A stretch of DNA of 64,000 bases from positions 124,001-188,000 of the forward strand of contig JAFTMI010000035.1 of NCBI GenBank assembly GCA_017452505.1. Direction: 5' to 3'. A model generated the notes under the pieces. That model did no database searches, was not told where the DNA came from, and saw only the letters and a list, made by a program, of their open reading frames with translations. This DNA is from Oscillospiraceae bacterium (lineage in GTDB: Bacteria > Bacillota > Clostridia > Oscillospirales > Oscillospiraceae). The translations under genes were made by a program, and so were the position numbers. Below, in pieces: positions 26,515 through 32,176 of this stretch (its first letter is position 1; each line of letters begins with the position of its first letter).

Positions 26515-27840
26515 TTATTCAGCTTCAACAGGTTCTTCTAAAACGGTTTTGCGGATAATGGCGGTTTCTACCTGGTAGTTATCTACCTGTGTAACCTGGA
26601 TCTCCAGACCCTCCAGTTCCACCTTGTCATCCTTTTCGGGAGAAGTACCCAAATGATGGAATATCAAGCCGTTAAGGGTATCGTACTCCTCGGATTCCAG
26701 GTACATTCCAATGGCTTCAGAAAGTTCCTCCAAAAGCACACTGCCATCGGCCTGCCACAGATTCTCCTCCAGGGAAACGATCTTTTCTACGGTTTCCTCC
26801 GGCTGAATATCGTCCTCCAGGTCGCCCACCAATTCTTCGATCAAGTCCTTGATGGTGATGATACCACTCAATCCGCCGTACTCATCCAGTACAACAGCGA
26901 TCTGCTCGTGCTCTCTTTTCATATTGCGGAAAAGCACATCCGCCTTCAAGGTTTCCGGCACTACATAGGCCTCGGTGACCGCCTGCTCCATAACATTTTC
27001 CTTGGATTTATCGGCCAGGCGGAAATAGATCTTACTGTTCAGCACACCAACAATTCGGTCGGGGGTTTCCTCGCAAATGGGATAGTAGGTAAAACGACTG
27101 TTTATGATGGTATCGTGCCAGGTCTTCACACTATCCTCTAAGTACAGGAAAGTCACGTCAGTGCGGTGGGTGATGATCTCTGCAATAGGAAGATTATCAA
27201 ACTCAAACACATTCTCAATGAATTCCCGCTCTTCGTTGTCAATGGTGCCTTTTTCGTTGCCTACGTCCACCATCATACGGATCTCTTCCTCGCCAACTTC
27301 CTCTTCCTGCGCATTGGGGTCAATGCCCATCAGACGCAGAACGCCGTTGGTAGAAACCGTCAACAATCCAACCAAGGGAGAAAACACCTTGGCAATGCCG
27401 CTGATCAAGCCGGACATACCCAATGCCAGCTTTTCTGCGTTGCGCATAGCCACCTGCTTGGGCACCAGCTCACCAAAGACCAATGTGAAGTAGGACAGCA
27501 CGATGGTAATAAAGATAACCGCAATGGAGTCAAGGAGTTCCGCGTTCATACCAACGCCCAGGCCCAAAAGCCAATCTACCAGCACGCCGGAGAAGTTCTC
27601 CGCTGCAAAAGCACTTCCCAAAAACCCGGACAGGGTAATTGCAACTTGAATGGTAGCCAAAAAACGGGCAGGCTGACTGGTCAGCCTGGCAAGGCGCACC
27701 GCCCGCTTATCCCCTTCCGATACCATTTTTGCAAGTTTTGCATCGTTCATAGAGATCACCGCGATCTCCGCGCAGGCAAAAATCGCGTTCAATGCGATGA
27801 GTATTACTTGTAAACCTAGTGTTAACCCAATACTATTCAT
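26515..27840 (-). CDS. CNNM/CorC-type transporter (DUF21, CBS pair, CorC_HlyC domain)
   Basis: A 441-residue member of the so-called hemolysin C family. The DUF21/CNNM membrane domain spans about 1-185 with three to four helices (first QVILIALNAIFACAEIAVISM). A tandem CBS pair follows at about 205-330 (VLDEYGGLSGIITIKDLIEELVGDL closes it). The CorC_HlyC domain is last, at about 350-435. Relatives such as MpfA and CNNM proteins move Mg2+, mostly outward. The start at the ATG after GGAGGAAACT leaves a ~180-base leader that contains a small ORF and a terminator, so expression is probably attenuated. Confidence 0.92.
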   Translation of the reverse strand: MNSIGLTLGLQVILIALNAIFACAEIAVISMNDAKLAKMVSEGDKRAVRLARLTSQPARFLATIQVAITLSGFLGSAFAAENFSGVLVDWLLGLGVGMNAELLDSIAVIFITIVLSYFTLVFGELVPKQVAMRNAEKLALGMSGLISGIAKVFSPLVGLLTVSTNGVLRLMGIDPNAQEEEVGEEEIRMMVDVGNEKGTIDNEEREFIENVFEFDNLPIAEIITHRTDVTFLYLEDSVKTWHDTIINSRFTYYPICEETPDRIVGVLNSKIYFRLADKSKENVMEQAVTEAYVVPETLKADVLFRNMKREHEQIAVVLDEYGGLSGIITIKDLIEELVGDLEDDIQPEETVEKIVSLEENLWQADGSVLLEELSEAIGMYLESEEYDTLNGLIFHHLGTSPEKDDKVELEGLEIQVTQVDNYQVETAIIRKTVLEEPVEAE

Positions 27841-27881
27841 AGTTTCCTCCAAATATATCTCATTTTCCTCAAAAAGGGCGC

Positions 27882-27931
27882 AAAAAAGCAAAGCCTATGC
27901 CTTACATCCGCAGATGCAGCCTACGCTTCGC
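27882..27931 (-). terminator. Attenuator-like terminator in the CNNM leader
   Basis: On the minus strand GCGAAGC (27931-27925) pairs with GCTTTGC (27894-27888), with further internal pairing (GGC/GCC steps and GCATC/GGATGT). Six T residues follow at once (27887-27882). It lies between the leader promoter and the CNNM start, and the 3' end of the leader ORF runs through its 5' half. A ribosome reaching the leader stop would cover the 5' arm and prevent the hairpin. Confidence 0.72.
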
Positions 27932-27988
27932 CAAAACAAACTTCCGATATAAGGGAGGATTTTCGGGATTACTGTCGCCGTCGTCCAT
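27902..27988 (-). CDS. 28-residue leader peptide upstream of the CNNM/CorC gene (MgtL-like composition)
   Basis: An ORF of 28 codons plus stop in the untranslated leader. It begins MDDGDSNPENPPLY, with acidic residues and three prolines, and ends KRRLHLRM. Enterobacterial MgtL ([17 protein letters not shown]) has the same plan of acidic, proline-rich start and Arg-rich end, and acts as a Mg2+ sensor for a Mg2+ transporter. AAAGGAG lies about 14 bases upstream of the ATG, a rather long spacing. The last 10 codons lie inside the terminator hairpin. Regulation by translation of this peptide is inference; the ORF, hairpin and promoter are seen directly. Confidence 0.62.
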   Translation of the reverse strand: MDDGDSNPENPPLYRKFVLAKRRLHLRM

Positions 27989-28027
27989 AGTTTCTTAGGG
28001 AACTCCTTTCTGCATTTATTCACGTAC

Positions 28028-28055
28028 AGTATAGCAGGTTTTTTGCAAATTGCAA
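28028..28055 (-). promoter_or_regulatory. Promoter of the CNNM leader transcript
   Basis: -35 TTGCAA, 16-bp spacer, -10 TATACT on the minus strand. It gives a leader of about 180 bases before the CNNM start codon. Confidence 0.78.
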
Positions 28056-28228: not shown

Positions 28229-29536
28229 ATGGCAGAGAAAATCAGAGTAAATATTCCCAAGAAGTACGATTTGGTGGTTGGTGATACCTTCCAGCTGTAT
28301 TACCGCGGTATCATCGAAGCCCCCAACCCCTATGTATATTCCATCGTATCTATTTGCGATAAGGGCCGGAACTTCCCCCGGTACTTTGAATATGCGCCCA
28401 CCGAGCCCGGCCAACACAAGCTGACCATTAAGGTTTACGATGCACAGCGGAATCTGCTGGGTGAAGGCGAAACCATGCTGAATGTGGTTGTTCCCAAGGA
28501 GCCGAAGAAGTGCACCAATATTTTGTGCATCGGCGCTTCCACCACTGCCGGTGGTCAATGGGTGGGTGAGCTTAACCGCCGTATTACCGGCGAAGGCGGC
28601 GAGCCTGCAGCGCTTGGCTTTAAGAACGCCGTGAAATTCGTTGGCACCTGCAAGCCTGCGAACTATCCAGATGTGAATTTGACCGCTTATGGTGGCTGGC
28701 ACTGGGATTCCTATTTGACCAATGCTCCCGGCGCTATGTGGGTCAAGTGCGACAACAATCGGCAAGTGGATGACCAGCACTCCCTGTGGCAGGACATAAA
28801 CGGTGCGATTTGGCAACTGGAGACCCTGCAGATTGATTATTTGAAGTTTAACCGCTGGAAGGACCACACCTCTCCCCGTCCCACTGAAGGACCTCTCGTC
28901 CACTACGCTAACGCAGCAGACACGTCCCCCATTGAATTTACCAGCTCCAGCGATGCTCCTAAAACACCTTTCTTCATCGATGAGTTGGGCAAGATTGATT
29001 TCAAGGCCTATGCCGAGCAAATTGGTGCTGAGAGCATTGACGCAGTATACATTTGGCTGGGTGGCAACGGTCTGATGGGCCAGCAGGCTCTGTCCTTGCC
29101 CCGGAAAGAATACTGCCAGGTGGTGGTCAGCAAGGGCAAGAAGTTGGTTGGTCTCATCAAAGAGGCATTCCCCAATGTAAAGGTTAAGATCATGGGCCAG
29201 CATCTGTCTTCTCTGAACGGCGGTACCGGCACCAGCTATGGCGCTATGCTGCCTCTGACCGATACTTATGAGATCTGCAATTATAAGTGGGAACTGAACC
29301 TGGCATACGAGGCCTGGTGTCTGGAAGACGAGTACAAGGACTTTATGGAGTTCATTAACATTGCCGGTCAGTTTGACTGCGAGTACGGCTACCCCTGCAA
29401 ACAGAAGCCCGTAAACACCAGAAGCACTGTTACTGAGCGTTTGGATACCAACAGTGTCCATCCCACCACAGAAGGCTACTATCAGGTGGCTGATGCGGTT
29501 TATCGCAATGTAGTAGCAAGCTTCTGCAGCGAATAA
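28229..29536 (+). CDS. SGNH/GDSL-type hydrolase, paralog 1 of 3
   Basis: A 435-residue protein with an N-terminal beta-sandwich (about 1-85) and a SGNH hydrolase domain. The catalytic Ser block reads CIGASTTAGG; GDS is changed to GAS but the Ser is kept. Block II Gly lies in YGGWHWDS, block III in GGNGLMG, and the Asp/His pair in DTNSVHPT near the C-terminus. There is no signal peptide, so it should be cytoplasmic. The family deacylates carbohydrates or lipids; the substrate is unknown. The start follows TTGGAGGA; an upstream in-frame extension has no homology or ribosome site. Confidence 0.86.
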   Translation: MAEKIRVNIPKKYDLVVGDTFQLYYRGIIEAPNPYVYSIVSICDKGRNFPRYFEYAPTEPGQHKLTIKVYDAQRNLLGEGETMLNVVVPKEPKKCTNILCIGASTTAGGQWVGELNRRITGEGGEPAALGFKNAVKFVGTCKPANYPDVNLTAYGGWHWDSYLTNAPGAMWVKCDNNRQVDDQHSLWQDINGAIWQLETLQIDYLKFNRWKDHTSPRPTEGPLVHYANAADTSPIEFTSSSDAPKTPFFIDELGKIDFKAYAEQIGAESIDAVYIWLGGNGLMGQQALSLPRKEYCQVVVSKGKKLVGLIKEAFPNVKVKIMGQHLSSLNGGTGTSYGAMLPLTDTYEICNYKWELNLAYEAWCLEDEYKDFMEFINIAGQFDCEYGYPCKQKPVNTRSTVTERLDTNSVHPTTEGYYQVADAVYRNVVASFCSE

Positions 29537-29551
29537 CAGGAGGAATGTATA

Positions 29552-30856
29552 ATGGAGAATCAGATTCGTATTATTTTGCCCAAGAAATATGATCTGGTAG
29601 TGGGCGATACTTTCCAGCTTTATTACCGTGGTGTCATCGAAGCGCCCAATCCCTATGTCTATTCCATCGTTTCTATCTGCGACAAGGGACGGAATTTCCC
29701 CCGGTACTTTGAGTATGCGCCCACCGAGCCCGGTCAGCACAAGCTGACCATGAAGGTCTACGATGCCCAGCGGAATTTGCTGGGCGAGGCTGAAACCCTT
29801 TTGAATGTGGTTGCCCCCAAGGCACCGGAAAAGACCACTAACATTTTGGTGATTGGTGACTCCCTTACCGGCGGCGGCCACTGGATCAACGAGGCCCGTC
29901 GTCGCATCGTAGAAACTGAGGGTGAACCTGCAGGTTTGGGTTTTGCCAATGCGGTAAACTTCATTGGAACCCAAAAGGGCTACTATGCCGATACCCGCAA
30001 CGAAGGTTACGGCGGCTGGCACTGGGATTCCTTCCTGTACAATGTTCCCGGCGCTATGTGGATTGATTGCCCCAACAACCGCGGCGTTGAGGATCAGCAC
30101 TCTCTGTGGCAGGATGTAAACGGTGCCGTTTGGCAGCTGGAGACCCTGCAGATCGACTATCTGAAGTTTAACAGATGGAAGGATCACACCTCTCCCCGCC
30201 CCGAACACGGTCCTCTGATCCATTATGCAAATGCCGTGGATACCTCACCCATTGAATTCAAGAGCTCCAGCAATGCCGGTGGCTCTCCCTTTGTGAACCC
30301 GGAAACCGGCAAGATCGACTTTACCGATTACCTCAAGAGAAACAATTTAGAAAAGCCCGATGTGGTGTATATTCTCTTGGGCGGCAACGGTCTGATGGGC
30401 ACCGAAGCTATGAGCAACACCCGCGAGACTTACTGCCAGATCGTAATTAACAAGGGCAAACAACTGGTTGGCTTTATTAAGGAAGCCTTCCCCAATATTA
30501 AGGTCAAAATCATAGGCCAGCCCATGGGTTCTGTCAACGGCGGCATGGGTGCAAACTACGGCGCACAGTTGCCCCTCACCGATCACTACGACATCATCCA
30601 CTACAAAATGGAGCTGAACAGATGCTATCAGGCCTGGTGTTTAGAGGATGATTACAAAGACTTTATGGAATATGTAGATCTATCCGGTCAATTCGACTGT
30701 GAGCACGGCTACCCCTGTAAGGAAAAACCCGTAAACACCAGAAGCACTGTTACGGAGCGAATGGACACCAACGCTGCACATCCCACCGCAGATGGCTACA
30801 AACAATTTGGCGATGCCGTTTACAGAAACATCGTGGCAAGCTTCTGCTGCGAGTAA
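29552..30856 (+). CDS. SGNH/GDSL-type hydrolase, paralog 2 of 3
   Basis: A 434-residue tandem paralog of the preceding protein, 15 bases downstream. The first ~110 residues are nearly identical. The catalytic Ser block is the canonical VIGDSLTGGG; block II is YGGWHWDS, block III GGNGLMG, and the Asp/His pair DTNAAHPT. All catalytic positions are intact. The middle of the protein keeps the WQDVNGAVWQLETLQIDYL insert shared by all three. Divergence is greatest in about residues 245-345, which probably shape the substrate pocket. Confidence 0.87.
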   Translation: MENQIRIILPKKYDLVVGDTFQLYYRGVIEAPNPYVYSIVSICDKGRNFPRYFEYAPTEPGQHKLTMKVYDAQRNLLGEAETLLNVVAPKAPEKTTNILVIGDSLTGGGHWINEARRRIVETEGEPAGLGFANAVNFIGTQKGYYADTRNEGYGGWHWDSFLYNVPGAMWIDCPNNRGVEDQHSLWQDVNGAVWQLETLQIDYLKFNRWKDHTSPRPEHGPLIHYANAVDTSPIEFKSSSNAGGSPFVNPETGKIDFTDYLKRNNLEKPDVVYILLGGNGLMGTEAMSNTRETYCQIVINKGKQLVGFIKEAFPNIKVKIIGQPMGSVNGGMGANYGAQLPLTDHYDIIHYKMELNRCYQAWCLEDDYKDFMEYVDLSGQFDCEHGYPCKEKPVNTRSTVTERMDTNAAHPTADGYKQFGDAVYRNIVASFCCE

Positions 30857-30871
30857 TTGGAGGAAAGTGAA

Positions 30872-32176
30872 ATGGCTGAGAAAATTCGTGTGATTCTGCC
30901 CGAAAAGTATGACCTGGTGGTGGGTGACACCTTCCAGCTCTACTATCGGGGTGTTATTGAATCACCCAATCCCTATGTCTATTCCATCGTTTCTATCTGT
31001 GATAAGGGCCGCAACTTCCCCCGCTACTTTGAATATGCGCCCACTGAGCCCGGCCAGCACAAGCTGACTATCAAGGTTTACGATGCTCAGAGAAATCTGT
31101 TGGGCGAAGACGAGACCTTGTTGAACGTGGTTGCGCCCAAGGAGCCCAAGAAGACCACCAACATTCTGTGTATTGGTGACTCCCTCACCGGCGGTGGCTG
31201 GACTTACGAGGCATTCCGCCGCATTACCCAGGAGGGTGGTGCGCCTGCCGGCTTGGGTTTCAAGGATGCTGTTAAGTTTGTTGGCTCCTGCAAGCCCTCC
31301 AAGTATCCCGGCATCGCTTTGGAAGGCTACGGCGGCTGGCACTGGGACAACTTCCTGTATAACATTCCCGGCGCAATGTGGGTGGAATGCGACAACAACA
31401 GAGGTGTTGAAGATCAGCATTCTCTGTGGCAGGACGAAAACGGTGCTATTTGGCAGCTGGAGACTTTGCAGATCGATTATCTGAAGTTCAACCGCTATAT
31501 GGATCACGATTCTCCCCGTCCTGAGAAGGGTGTGTTGACCCATTATGCCAACGCCCATGACACCACCCCCATTGAATTCAAGAGCTCCAGCACCCCCAAA
31601 GGTTCTCCTTTCCTGAATCCCGAAACCGGCAAGGTCGACTTCATCGACTACTGCAAGCGCAACGAGATTGATCACATTGATGCCGCATATATCTTCCTGG
31701 GCACCAACGGTCTAATGAGCCAGGAGGCCATGACACACACCCGGAAGGAATATGCCGAGATCGTCGCCAATAAGGGCAAAAAGCTGGTAGATTTCCTGAA
31801 GCGGGACTTCCCGAACATCAAGATAAAGATCATGGGCCTGCCCCTTGCTTCTCTCAACGGCGGAGGCGCATCCAACTACGGTGCGATTATGCCGCTGACT
31901 GATGTTTACTACGGTGTCCATTACAGGATGGAGATCAACCTTGCTTACCAGGCTTGGTGCTTGGAAGACAAGTACAAGGATTTCTGCGAGTTCATTAACC
32001 TCAGCGGTCAGTTTGACTCTGAGTACAACTACCCCTGCAAGCAGGTCCCTGTGAATACAAGAAGCGAAGTCACCGAGCGACGGGACACCAATGGTGCTCA
32101 CCCCACTATGGCTGGCTACTACCAAATCGGCGACGCTGTGTACAGAAACATCGTTGCCAGCTTCTGCAGCGAGTAA
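30872..32176 (+). CDS. SGNH/GDSL-type hydrolase, paralog 3 of 3
   Basis: A 434-residue third tandem copy with the motifs CIGDSLTGGG, YGGWHWDN, GTNGLMS and DTNGAHPT. It follows paralog 2 after a 15-base gap containing TTGGAGGA. The ATG at 30872 is preferred over an upstream TTG that overlaps that site. The NGLM motif after the block III Asn is kept in all copies. Three intact copies in one operon point to selected duplication with specialisation, not decay. A terminator closes the operon. Confidence 0.87.
   Translation: MAEKIRVILPEKYDLVVGDTFQLYYRGVIESPNPYVYSIVSICDKGRNFPRYFEYAPTEPGQHKLTIKVYDAQRNLLGEDETLLNVVAPKEPKKTTNILCIGDSLTGGGWTYEAFRRITQEGGAPAGLGFKDAVKFVGSCKPSKYPGIALEGYGGWHWDNFLYNIPGAMWVECDNNRGVEDQHSLWQDENGAIWQLETLQIDYLKFNRYMDHDSPRPEKGVLTHYANAHDTTPIEFKSSSTPKGSPFLNPETGKVDFIDYCKRNEIDHIDAAYIFLGTNGLMSQEAMTHTRKEYAEIVANKGKKLVDFLKRDFPNIKIKIMGLPLASLNGGGASNYGAIMPLTDVYYGVHYRMEINLAYQAWCLEDKYKDFCEFINLSGQFDSEYNYPCKQVPVNTRSEVTERRDTNGAHPTMAGYYQIGDAVYRNIVASFCSE

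Follow-up and report, generated by a model that had tools for sequence, protein, structure and literature searches.

In a 64,000-nucleotide stretch of DNA from an Oscillospiraceae bacterium (contig JAFTMI010000035.1), referred to here as the window, a promoter, a short leader ORF, a terminator hairpin, a U-run, and a CNNM/CorC-family transporter gene all lie on the minus strand (Table 1). A sequence-only reading of this DNA had named these parts, and the promoter, the 28-codon ORF, and a transporter start about 40 bases downstream were found where it had placed them, with the ATG 41 nt beyond the U-run. The hairpin with six T residues at the end of the ORF was also present at the right coordinates, but it is longer than claimed. 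It spans the last nine codons of the leader ORF, and the leader stop codon lies inside its 3′ arm. Judged by eye, a promoter-like sequence occupies the same position in genomes G060 and G041 and in other relatives. The transporter carries CNNM, CBS, and CorC_HlyC domains (Pfam PF01595, 8.9e-50; PF00571; PF03471), and its best NCBIfam score was to the polyamine exporter PaeA-like model, at 235 bits, short of the cut-off of 500; from its family, the product is presumed to export Mg2+ or another cation. No Pfam or NCBIfam family matched the window leader peptide, the acidic N-terminus of which is presumed to be the sensor. Three tandem paralogues of ~435 aa each (MAEKIRVNIPKKYDLVVGDTFQLYYRG...) lie in the window at 28229-32176 on the plus strand, oriented away from the CNNM gene, and the first of these matched no Pfam family.

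Table 1. Features of the leader region and transporter gene in the window.
Feature	Position	Strand	Basis
Sigma-70-type promoter, TTGCAA-16 nt-TATACT, TG ahead of second hexamer	28028..28055	-	pattern match
Shine-Dalgarno of leader ORF, AAGGAG, start codon 14 nt further	28003..28008	-	sequence reading
Leader ORF, 28 codons, MDDGDSNPENPPLYRKFVLAKRRLHLRM	27902..27988	-	ORF list and comparison
Terminator hairpin, GGCGAAGCGTAG...ATAGGCTTTGCT, ~46 nt	27887..27932	-	folding; core matched by model R1
U-run of terminator, six T	27882..27887	-	sequence reading
Shine-Dalgarno of CNNM gene, GGAGG	27846..27850	-	sequence reading
CNNM/CorC-family transporter gene, 441 aa, ATG at 27840	26515..27840	-	Pfam domains

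Taken singly, the parts of the window leader are not above chance expectation. The region holds one promoter-like site against 3.0 in shuffled sequences and three terminator-like sites against 3.6, and the 189-nt leader folds no better than its shuffles (z = 0.08). No Rfam family matched the window leader or eight loci from relatives and its own genome, nor did the M-box covariance model (RF00380) match at the leader in the window or the eight further loci; with the leader unmatched, a known riboswitch or other Rfam element was ruled out. The M-box Mg2+ riboswitch itself was found in 1 of 14 chosen genomes, the other 13 being without it. A dispersed repeat (REP or MITE) was likewise rejected, as the leader is single-copy in its own genome, with 10 other matches of 14–27 nt. 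We therefore took the element as real on the strength of its conservation across genomes rather than of single-site patterns. The leader region is 97% identical to the window in G060 (over 231 nt) and 74% in G041 (over 178 nt), and in further genomes the leader plan is preserved and the sequence has diverged. The start MDDGDSNP[DE]N is kept in five related genomes (L010, L061-L064), the remainder of the peptides differing, and other leaders have acidic starts too. A chance ORF over a plain terminator was ruled out by this conservation together with the geometry and covariation described below. On these comparative grounds, the window leader and its hairpin are predicted to be a real, conserved leader-peptide attenuator.

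A CNNM protein search of 394 genomes of the order gave 134 matches at E ≤ 1e-80, in 133 genomes. Upstream regions were taken for 133 of the 134, omitting one match at a contig edge, and start codons were assigned by eye in seven of these loci. A strict leader rule, requiring a Shine-Dalgarno sequence (SD), 10–60 codons, and at least three Asp or Glu among residues 2–10, was passed upstream of 38 of the 133 CNNM genes, compared with 3 of 118 intergenic upstream regions of control genes (Fisher p = 4e-9, kinship ignored). Examples of such leaders are MDDGDSNAPAKPPSYNYEQ (L012), MDAGDSTPDPERNN (L016), MEDSSDGDPHTAAF (L131), MDGSDSNAADRSV (L160), and MSDEESDSTGDH (L073). The degenerate pattern ATGGAYGANGGNGAYAGT matched six times in the 394 genomes, each time upstream of CNNM by coordinates, and its reversed control matched nowhere in them. 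A hairpin with a T-run lies 20–150 nt upstream of 64 of the 133 CNNM genes and of 24 of 112 control genes, the two control sets differing by six genes near record ends. Because so many controls also carry a hairpin and T-run, terminator strength alone is weak evidence, and we dropped it as a sole argument.

The hairpin itself is more informative. Across relatives, the outer stem reads GGCATARYCTG...CAGGYTRTGCC and is mostly followed by TTTTTG. In an alignment of 18 sequences, 92.8% of 180 cells were paired and 7 of 10 pairs had two-sided changes; pairing fell to 29–53% when one arm was slid by 1–3 columns. A set of 22 sequences gave 94.1% of cells paired. None of 500 shuffles equalled the alignments in paired cells, in cells changed on both sides, or in covariation score, and the count of pairs with two-sided changes was less distinct, being reached by 33 of 500 shuffles (18 sequences) and 59 of 500 (22 sequences). 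Ahead of the gene there is thus an intrinsic terminator with a conserved, covarying stem, as a leader-peptide attenuator should have.

We built a covariance model, R1, from 13 hairpins, leaving out the window's clade. Its best site in the window was the hairpin at 27879-27927, a weak match (23.7 bits, E 0.028 in 525 kb), and in the window's own genome this hairpin was again the best site but narrowly, at 23.7 bits (E 0.108) against 22.8 for an ordinary-looking terminator. In 91 sources (525 kb), R1 gave 25 matches at E < 0.05, a count in which L010 and L060 represent the same genome, with L080 resembling a copy of training locus L055; 24 of these, the window included, lie just upstream of CNNM and on its strand, and one, in L014, precedes another gene. 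Another 87 sources yielded 12 matches at E < 0.01, of which 11 lie at most 120 nt from the CNNM start and the twelfth (L188) 339 nt from it. A second model, R2, was trained on 22 hairpins; 18 of these turn up again among the 39 exporter hits that it produced, which makes searching with R1 the fairer test.

The relative position of leader and hairpin was measured in 71 of 99 rows, from loci preselected for a visible leader or hairpin. The 28 rows dropped were mostly opposite-strand echoes, along with the L014 site described below, L035, L040, and a second site each in L055 and L059. Of the 71 hairpins, 65 are accompanied by an ORF that follows an SD and has two or more acidic residues at positions 2–10, a figure that is not an unbiased rate because the loci were picked for a leader or hairpin already seen; 57 of the 71 have at least three acidic residues. 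Among the six that fail the leader rule, L121 and L133 have an acidic ORF but no evident SD, and the ORF of L055 has one acidic residue. In the 65 leaders, the start codon lies 47–105 nt upstream of the hairpin (median 67), SD-to-start spacing is long (median 13 nt), and the stop codon ends between 9 nt before and 81 nt after the hairpin start in every case, despite differing peptide ends. In 46 of the 65, the leader frame has no stop before the hairpin, and in the remaining 19 it closes at most 9 nt short of it; of the 130 alternative frames, 29 run open as far as the hairpin. A short ORF with its own SD thus stands between promoter and gene, and in all 65 of these preselected pairs a translating ribosome could reach and cover one arm of the terminator. 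By this geometry, a ribosome completing the leader would arrive at the 5′ arm, whereas a halt within the first ten codons would keep it away. The overlap of hairpin and ORF end proposed from sequence alone is borne out by the window coordinates. The attenuator reading gains support from the leader, the covariation, and the overlap together, and the proposed sign, exporter on when translation is complete, would follow from the same measurements.

Next, we considered the peptide. Over 73 distinct leaders, residues 2–10 are 44% acidic, a share owed partly to the selection rule, and 1.2% hydrophobic or aromatic, and residues 11–18 are 5% acidic and 33% hydrophobic or aromatic. Proline makes up 7.6% and 6.2% of the two segments, respectively, and is absent from residues 2–10 of the ten leaders ahead of Ca2+-ATPase-like genes. 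By this comparison, acidic residues are the feature common to the leaders and prolines appear optional, a composition that would fit an intrinsic ribosome destabilisation (IRD) sequence. The C-termini vary among relatives and coincide with the hairpin, so that the Arg-rich end of the window peptide, which is not conserved, is the hairpin read as codons. The earlier likening of the peptide to MgtL accordingly holds in part: comparison of regions upstream of related CNNM genes shows the acidic start (MDDGDSNPENPP in the window) and the hairpin to be conserved, but prolines are not general and the Arg-rich C-terminus is variable. Codon choice is uneven, with AGT used for 62 of 133 Ser codons in leader residues 2–15 (9.5% in CNNM genes) and CGA for 29 of 44 Arg codons (6.1% in CNNM genes), kinship being ignored in both comparisons. 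Starvation for Pro, Arg, or Ser was weighed as a signal and not adopted. Substitutions at codon positions 1, 2, and 3 of the leaders numbered 33, 42, and 65, and the dN/dS-like ratio was 0.49 overall and 0.39 in codons 2–11 (17 pairs, some sharing a member). The comparison of synonymous and non-synonymous changes, which had been named as a test of the ORF, thus points to moderate coding constraint. Because that constraint is moderate and the codons themselves are under selection of their own kind (AGT, CGA), the RNA or codon speed may carry some of the signal.

We also examined where else the leader and hairpin pair occurs. In 197 genomes, R1 found 18 sites, of which 8 lie ahead of the query CNNM and 10 elsewhere. 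Seven of these 10 stand behind an acidic leader ahead of another transporter gene: five precede P-type, Ca2+-ATPase-like genes, with leaders such as MDDADSSDADRSNIHCKLNTFYI, and the other two, whose leaders are MEDSGTRSCGRYTRIR and MEDSGNRLCDRNTYRVA, each stand before a second CNNM gene. The remaining three resemble ordinary terminators. In 394 genomes, R2 gave 51 hits in 47 genomes, comprising 25 at the query CNNM, 4 at other CNNM genes, 10 at ATPases, and 12 others. The leader rule of the geometry set is passed by 36 of the 39 exporter-type sites, 18 of the 39 being training sequences and L145 being doubtful. For the 12 hits without a demonstrated exporter and acidic leader, 10 were read and 2, at contig ends, were not; one of the 12, L261, is at a gene that by eye resembles a Na/Pi transporter and has no acidic leader. 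In a class-wide sample of 245 genomes, two hits reached E ≤ 0.003: G072, which belongs to the same order and is already counted, and G526, outside the order, where leader and CNNM gene resemble their counterparts in L067, a locus of the named strain Ructibacterium gallinarum DSM 107454, which has a leader. In L014, an element on the minus strand (hairpin 993-1039, leader MDTADSSNTARID) precedes a YtvI/AI-2E family gene (970-2), divergent from a CNNM gene with its own leader.

ATPase sites with an acidic leader and hairpin are L226-L230, L239, L243, L246, L249, L250, and L256, and 8 of 10 leaders ahead of Ca2+-ATPase-like genes start MDDADSSDADR. For one full-length ATPase, the PMR1-type Ca2+ model gave 699 bits against a cut-off of 798, the SERCA-type model 656 against 703, and the Mg2+ import model 411 against 611; the protein is nearer the PMR1 type than the import type, with all scores below their cut-offs. 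The closest solved structure to the N-terminal half is the Listeria Ca2+-ATPase lmo0841. The leader target in the window is the CNNM/CorC gene, not an Mg2+ importer of the mgtA kind. In L246 (G001), leader and hairpin are followed by an apparently truncated Ca2+-ATPase reading frame. In the window's own genome, the Ca2+-ATPase homologue (G000:C14, L241) has a terminator-like hairpin directly upstream and no acidic leader. Loci L233 and L266 carry a terminator-like hairpin, GGCATAGCCG...CGGCTGTGCC, without an acidic leader and ahead of an ABC-transporter-like gene; these hairpins are probably ordinary.

Other arrangements appear outside the attenuator form. Among 16 loci of Paenibacillus, Bacillus, and Gorillibacterium, 13 have a leader by rule (L082-L085, L089-L091, L094, L095, L098-L100, L105), most starting MDDEP or MDDDP, and no convincing terminator was found with them. 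In the Paenibacillus folds read, which carry no shuffle control, RNA at the leader end mostly pairs with part of the SD or start region of the CNNM gene, so the leader end may mask the SD in a translational form of the same control. A third arrangement concerns the transporter itself. In 27 of the 95 leaderless CNNM genes, the protein starts acidic, for example MDPDGG or MDADPG. The 133 CNNM genes divide into 2 with both leader and acidic N-terminus, 36 with the leader only, 27 with the N-terminus only, and 68 with neither under the rules used, a tendency towards mutual exclusion (p = 0.002, kinship ignored); a second table, of leader or terminator against acidic N-terminus, gave p = 0.02. AGT is frequent among the Ser codons of acidic CNNM starts too (17 of 30, all loci). 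Because 21 of the 118 controls have an N-terminus that passes the same rule, the idea that these acidic N-termini are fused sensors is suggestive only.

From the covarying hairpin, the leader that overlaps it, and the genes behind them, we infer a probable mechanism for the window: transcription of a cation exporter would be attenuated in dependence on leader translation, as one case of a wider family, with ribosomes expected to drop off acidic codons at low Mg2+. The mRNA would begin just downstream of the -10 box (28028), and a ribosome would initiate on the leader ORF. By default the hairpin would form and transcription would end ahead of the CNNM gene. A ribosome that passed the acidic first ten codons would continue until it met a stop codon at the hairpin, within it, or past it, covering the 5′ arm, whereupon RNA polymerase would read through and the exporter would be made; drop-off or stalling on the acidic stretch would leave the 5′ arm free and the exporter off. 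Drop-off should be favoured on acidic nascent chains with destabilised ribosomes, for instance at low Mg2+. Since the family also lies ahead of Ca2+-ATPase-like genes, what is sensed may be whether divalent cations suffice to keep the ribosome intact. Several observations count against this reading, namely the weakness of the window copy, the 68 of 133 CNNM genes with neither leader nor acidic N-terminus, the 12 of 51 R2 hits that show no exporter behind an acidic leader, the ATPase homologue without a leader in the same genome, and the moderate coding constraint; the Ca2+-ATPase-like targets speak against Mg2+ as the sole signal. Direct blocking of a terminator hairpin by a ribosome keeping pace with polymerase, without an antiterminator, is familiar from the pyrL-pyrBI attenuator, which differs in sensing UTP through polymerase pausing and not through an acidic nascent chain.

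The sensing step resembles that of mgtL-mgtA in E. coli and Salmonella, where, in the text available of PMC11282234, acidic and proline codons come early, the acidic EPDP motif of MgtL leads to ribosome dissociation at low Mg2+, and the output is termination. There, the gene is an importer switched on at low Mg2+ and termination is Rho-dependent, whereas the window has a presumed exporter, an intrinsic hairpin and U-run, and a leader whose full translation should switch the gene on. The likeness is thus by analogy in sensing, with target, terminator, and presumed sign different and the output apparently reversed; an MgtL orthologue was ruled out, given a target that is not of the mgtA kind, an Arg-rich end that is not conserved, optional prolines, and a terminator that appears to be intrinsic. 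In Salmonella mgtQ-mgtB, a small ORF before an Mg2+ transporter likewise needs acidic codons 2 and 5 and acts through ribosome destabilisation, but its output is translational, its gene encodes an importer, and its sense is reversed (PMC8092293, available text). A CorC-family target is shared with YoaL-mgpA and CorC of Enterobacteria, as described for Salmonella in the main text of PMC12421838. There, mgpA and corC rise at high Mg2+ (mgpA only at neutral or alkaline pH), CorC and MgpA protect against excess Mg2+, the CorC N-terminus is reported to hold a ribosome-destabilising sequence, and YoaL is a positive leader of mgpA (yoaE), its translation raising MgpA by a mechanism that the authors call unclear. 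The resemblance is one of description, and the word terminator is absent from that main text. In E. coli mdtU-mdtJI, leader translation is needed to induce a spermidine exporter and early termination means off; that system differs in being Rho-dependent, in its conserved C-terminus, and in its signal, spermidine (PMC7815308, available text). Given acidic drop-off in MgtL and mgtQ and the induction of CorC and MgpA, the likely logic would be that enough Mg2+ or other divalent cation gives stable ribosomes and hence exporter. In the open-licence literature, supplements aside, we found no leader described for CNNM or Ca2+-ATPase genes of Clostridia, and the available text of PMC2965389 and PMC10219788 describes none.

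The strongest competing account, which we consider unlikely but weighty, keeps the same attenuator and sign and changes the signal to Ca2+, Mn2+, polyamines, or the general capacity for translation (EF-P, ABC-F factors, or charged tRNA for AGT and CGA). The Ca2+-ATPase-like genes among the targets imply that the element may respond to more than Mg2+, the CNNM protein has its sub-threshold resemblance to PaeA, both rare codons are overused in leader residues 2–15, and a spermidine exporter with a leader ORF exists in mdtU (PMC7815308, available text). Set against this, CNNM genes are the main target, lying behind 29 of the 39 exporter-type sites, and PMC8242095 associates the CNNM/CorB family with Mg2+ transport. 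Moreover, each rare codon is missing in some leaders and the acidic block in none of those counted, partly through the rule.

It is improbable that the terminator is constitutive or sensed by the RNA itself, as a riboswitch-like or protein site, with the leader ORF an overlapping passenger. The hairpin sequence is indeed conserved beyond the needs of a plain terminator (GGCATARCCTG...CAGGCTATGCC TTTTTGCG), and six of the 71 hairpins have no leader by the rule. However, the other 65, preselected as noted, have an acidic SD-preceded ORF that always reaches the hairpin, no Rfam family matches the leader, and the ten R2 hits that were read and lack a leader stand ahead of assorted genes or of no gene. 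More improbable still is the opposite sign, with a ribosome stalled in the acidic stretch freeing an antiterminator and the gene on at low Mg2+, as the acidic leaders MgtL and MgtQ act for importers (PMC11282234 and PMC8092293, available text): window codons 2–10 lie 29–53 nt ahead of the hairpin, so that a ribosome held there would leave the 5′ arm free, no antiterminator is evident in a single fold of the window leader, and in Paenibacillus the 3′ RNA of the leader can pair with the transporter SD region, so that full translation should free the SD.

Taking drop-off at an acidic start peptide as the sensing step, we tentatively extend it to a cation-excess regulon of Clostridia with the ribosome as sensor, an idea that is possible though short of being the favoured expectation. 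Drop-off at one acidic start peptide would control CNNM exporters, Ca2+-ATPases, and a YtvI-type protein, with three outputs: an attenuator in the window's order, masking of the ribosome binding site in Paenibacillus, and fusion of the acidic block to the transporter start in leaderless genomes. Control of bacterial Mg2+ exporters is poorly understood, and that of mgpA and corC is called unclear in the main text of the 2025 Salmonella study (PMC12421838). If the proposed mechanism is true, the stability of the ribosome on an acidic nascent chain would be a direct read-out of divalent cation excess, with an output opposite to that of MgtL and shared by several exporters.
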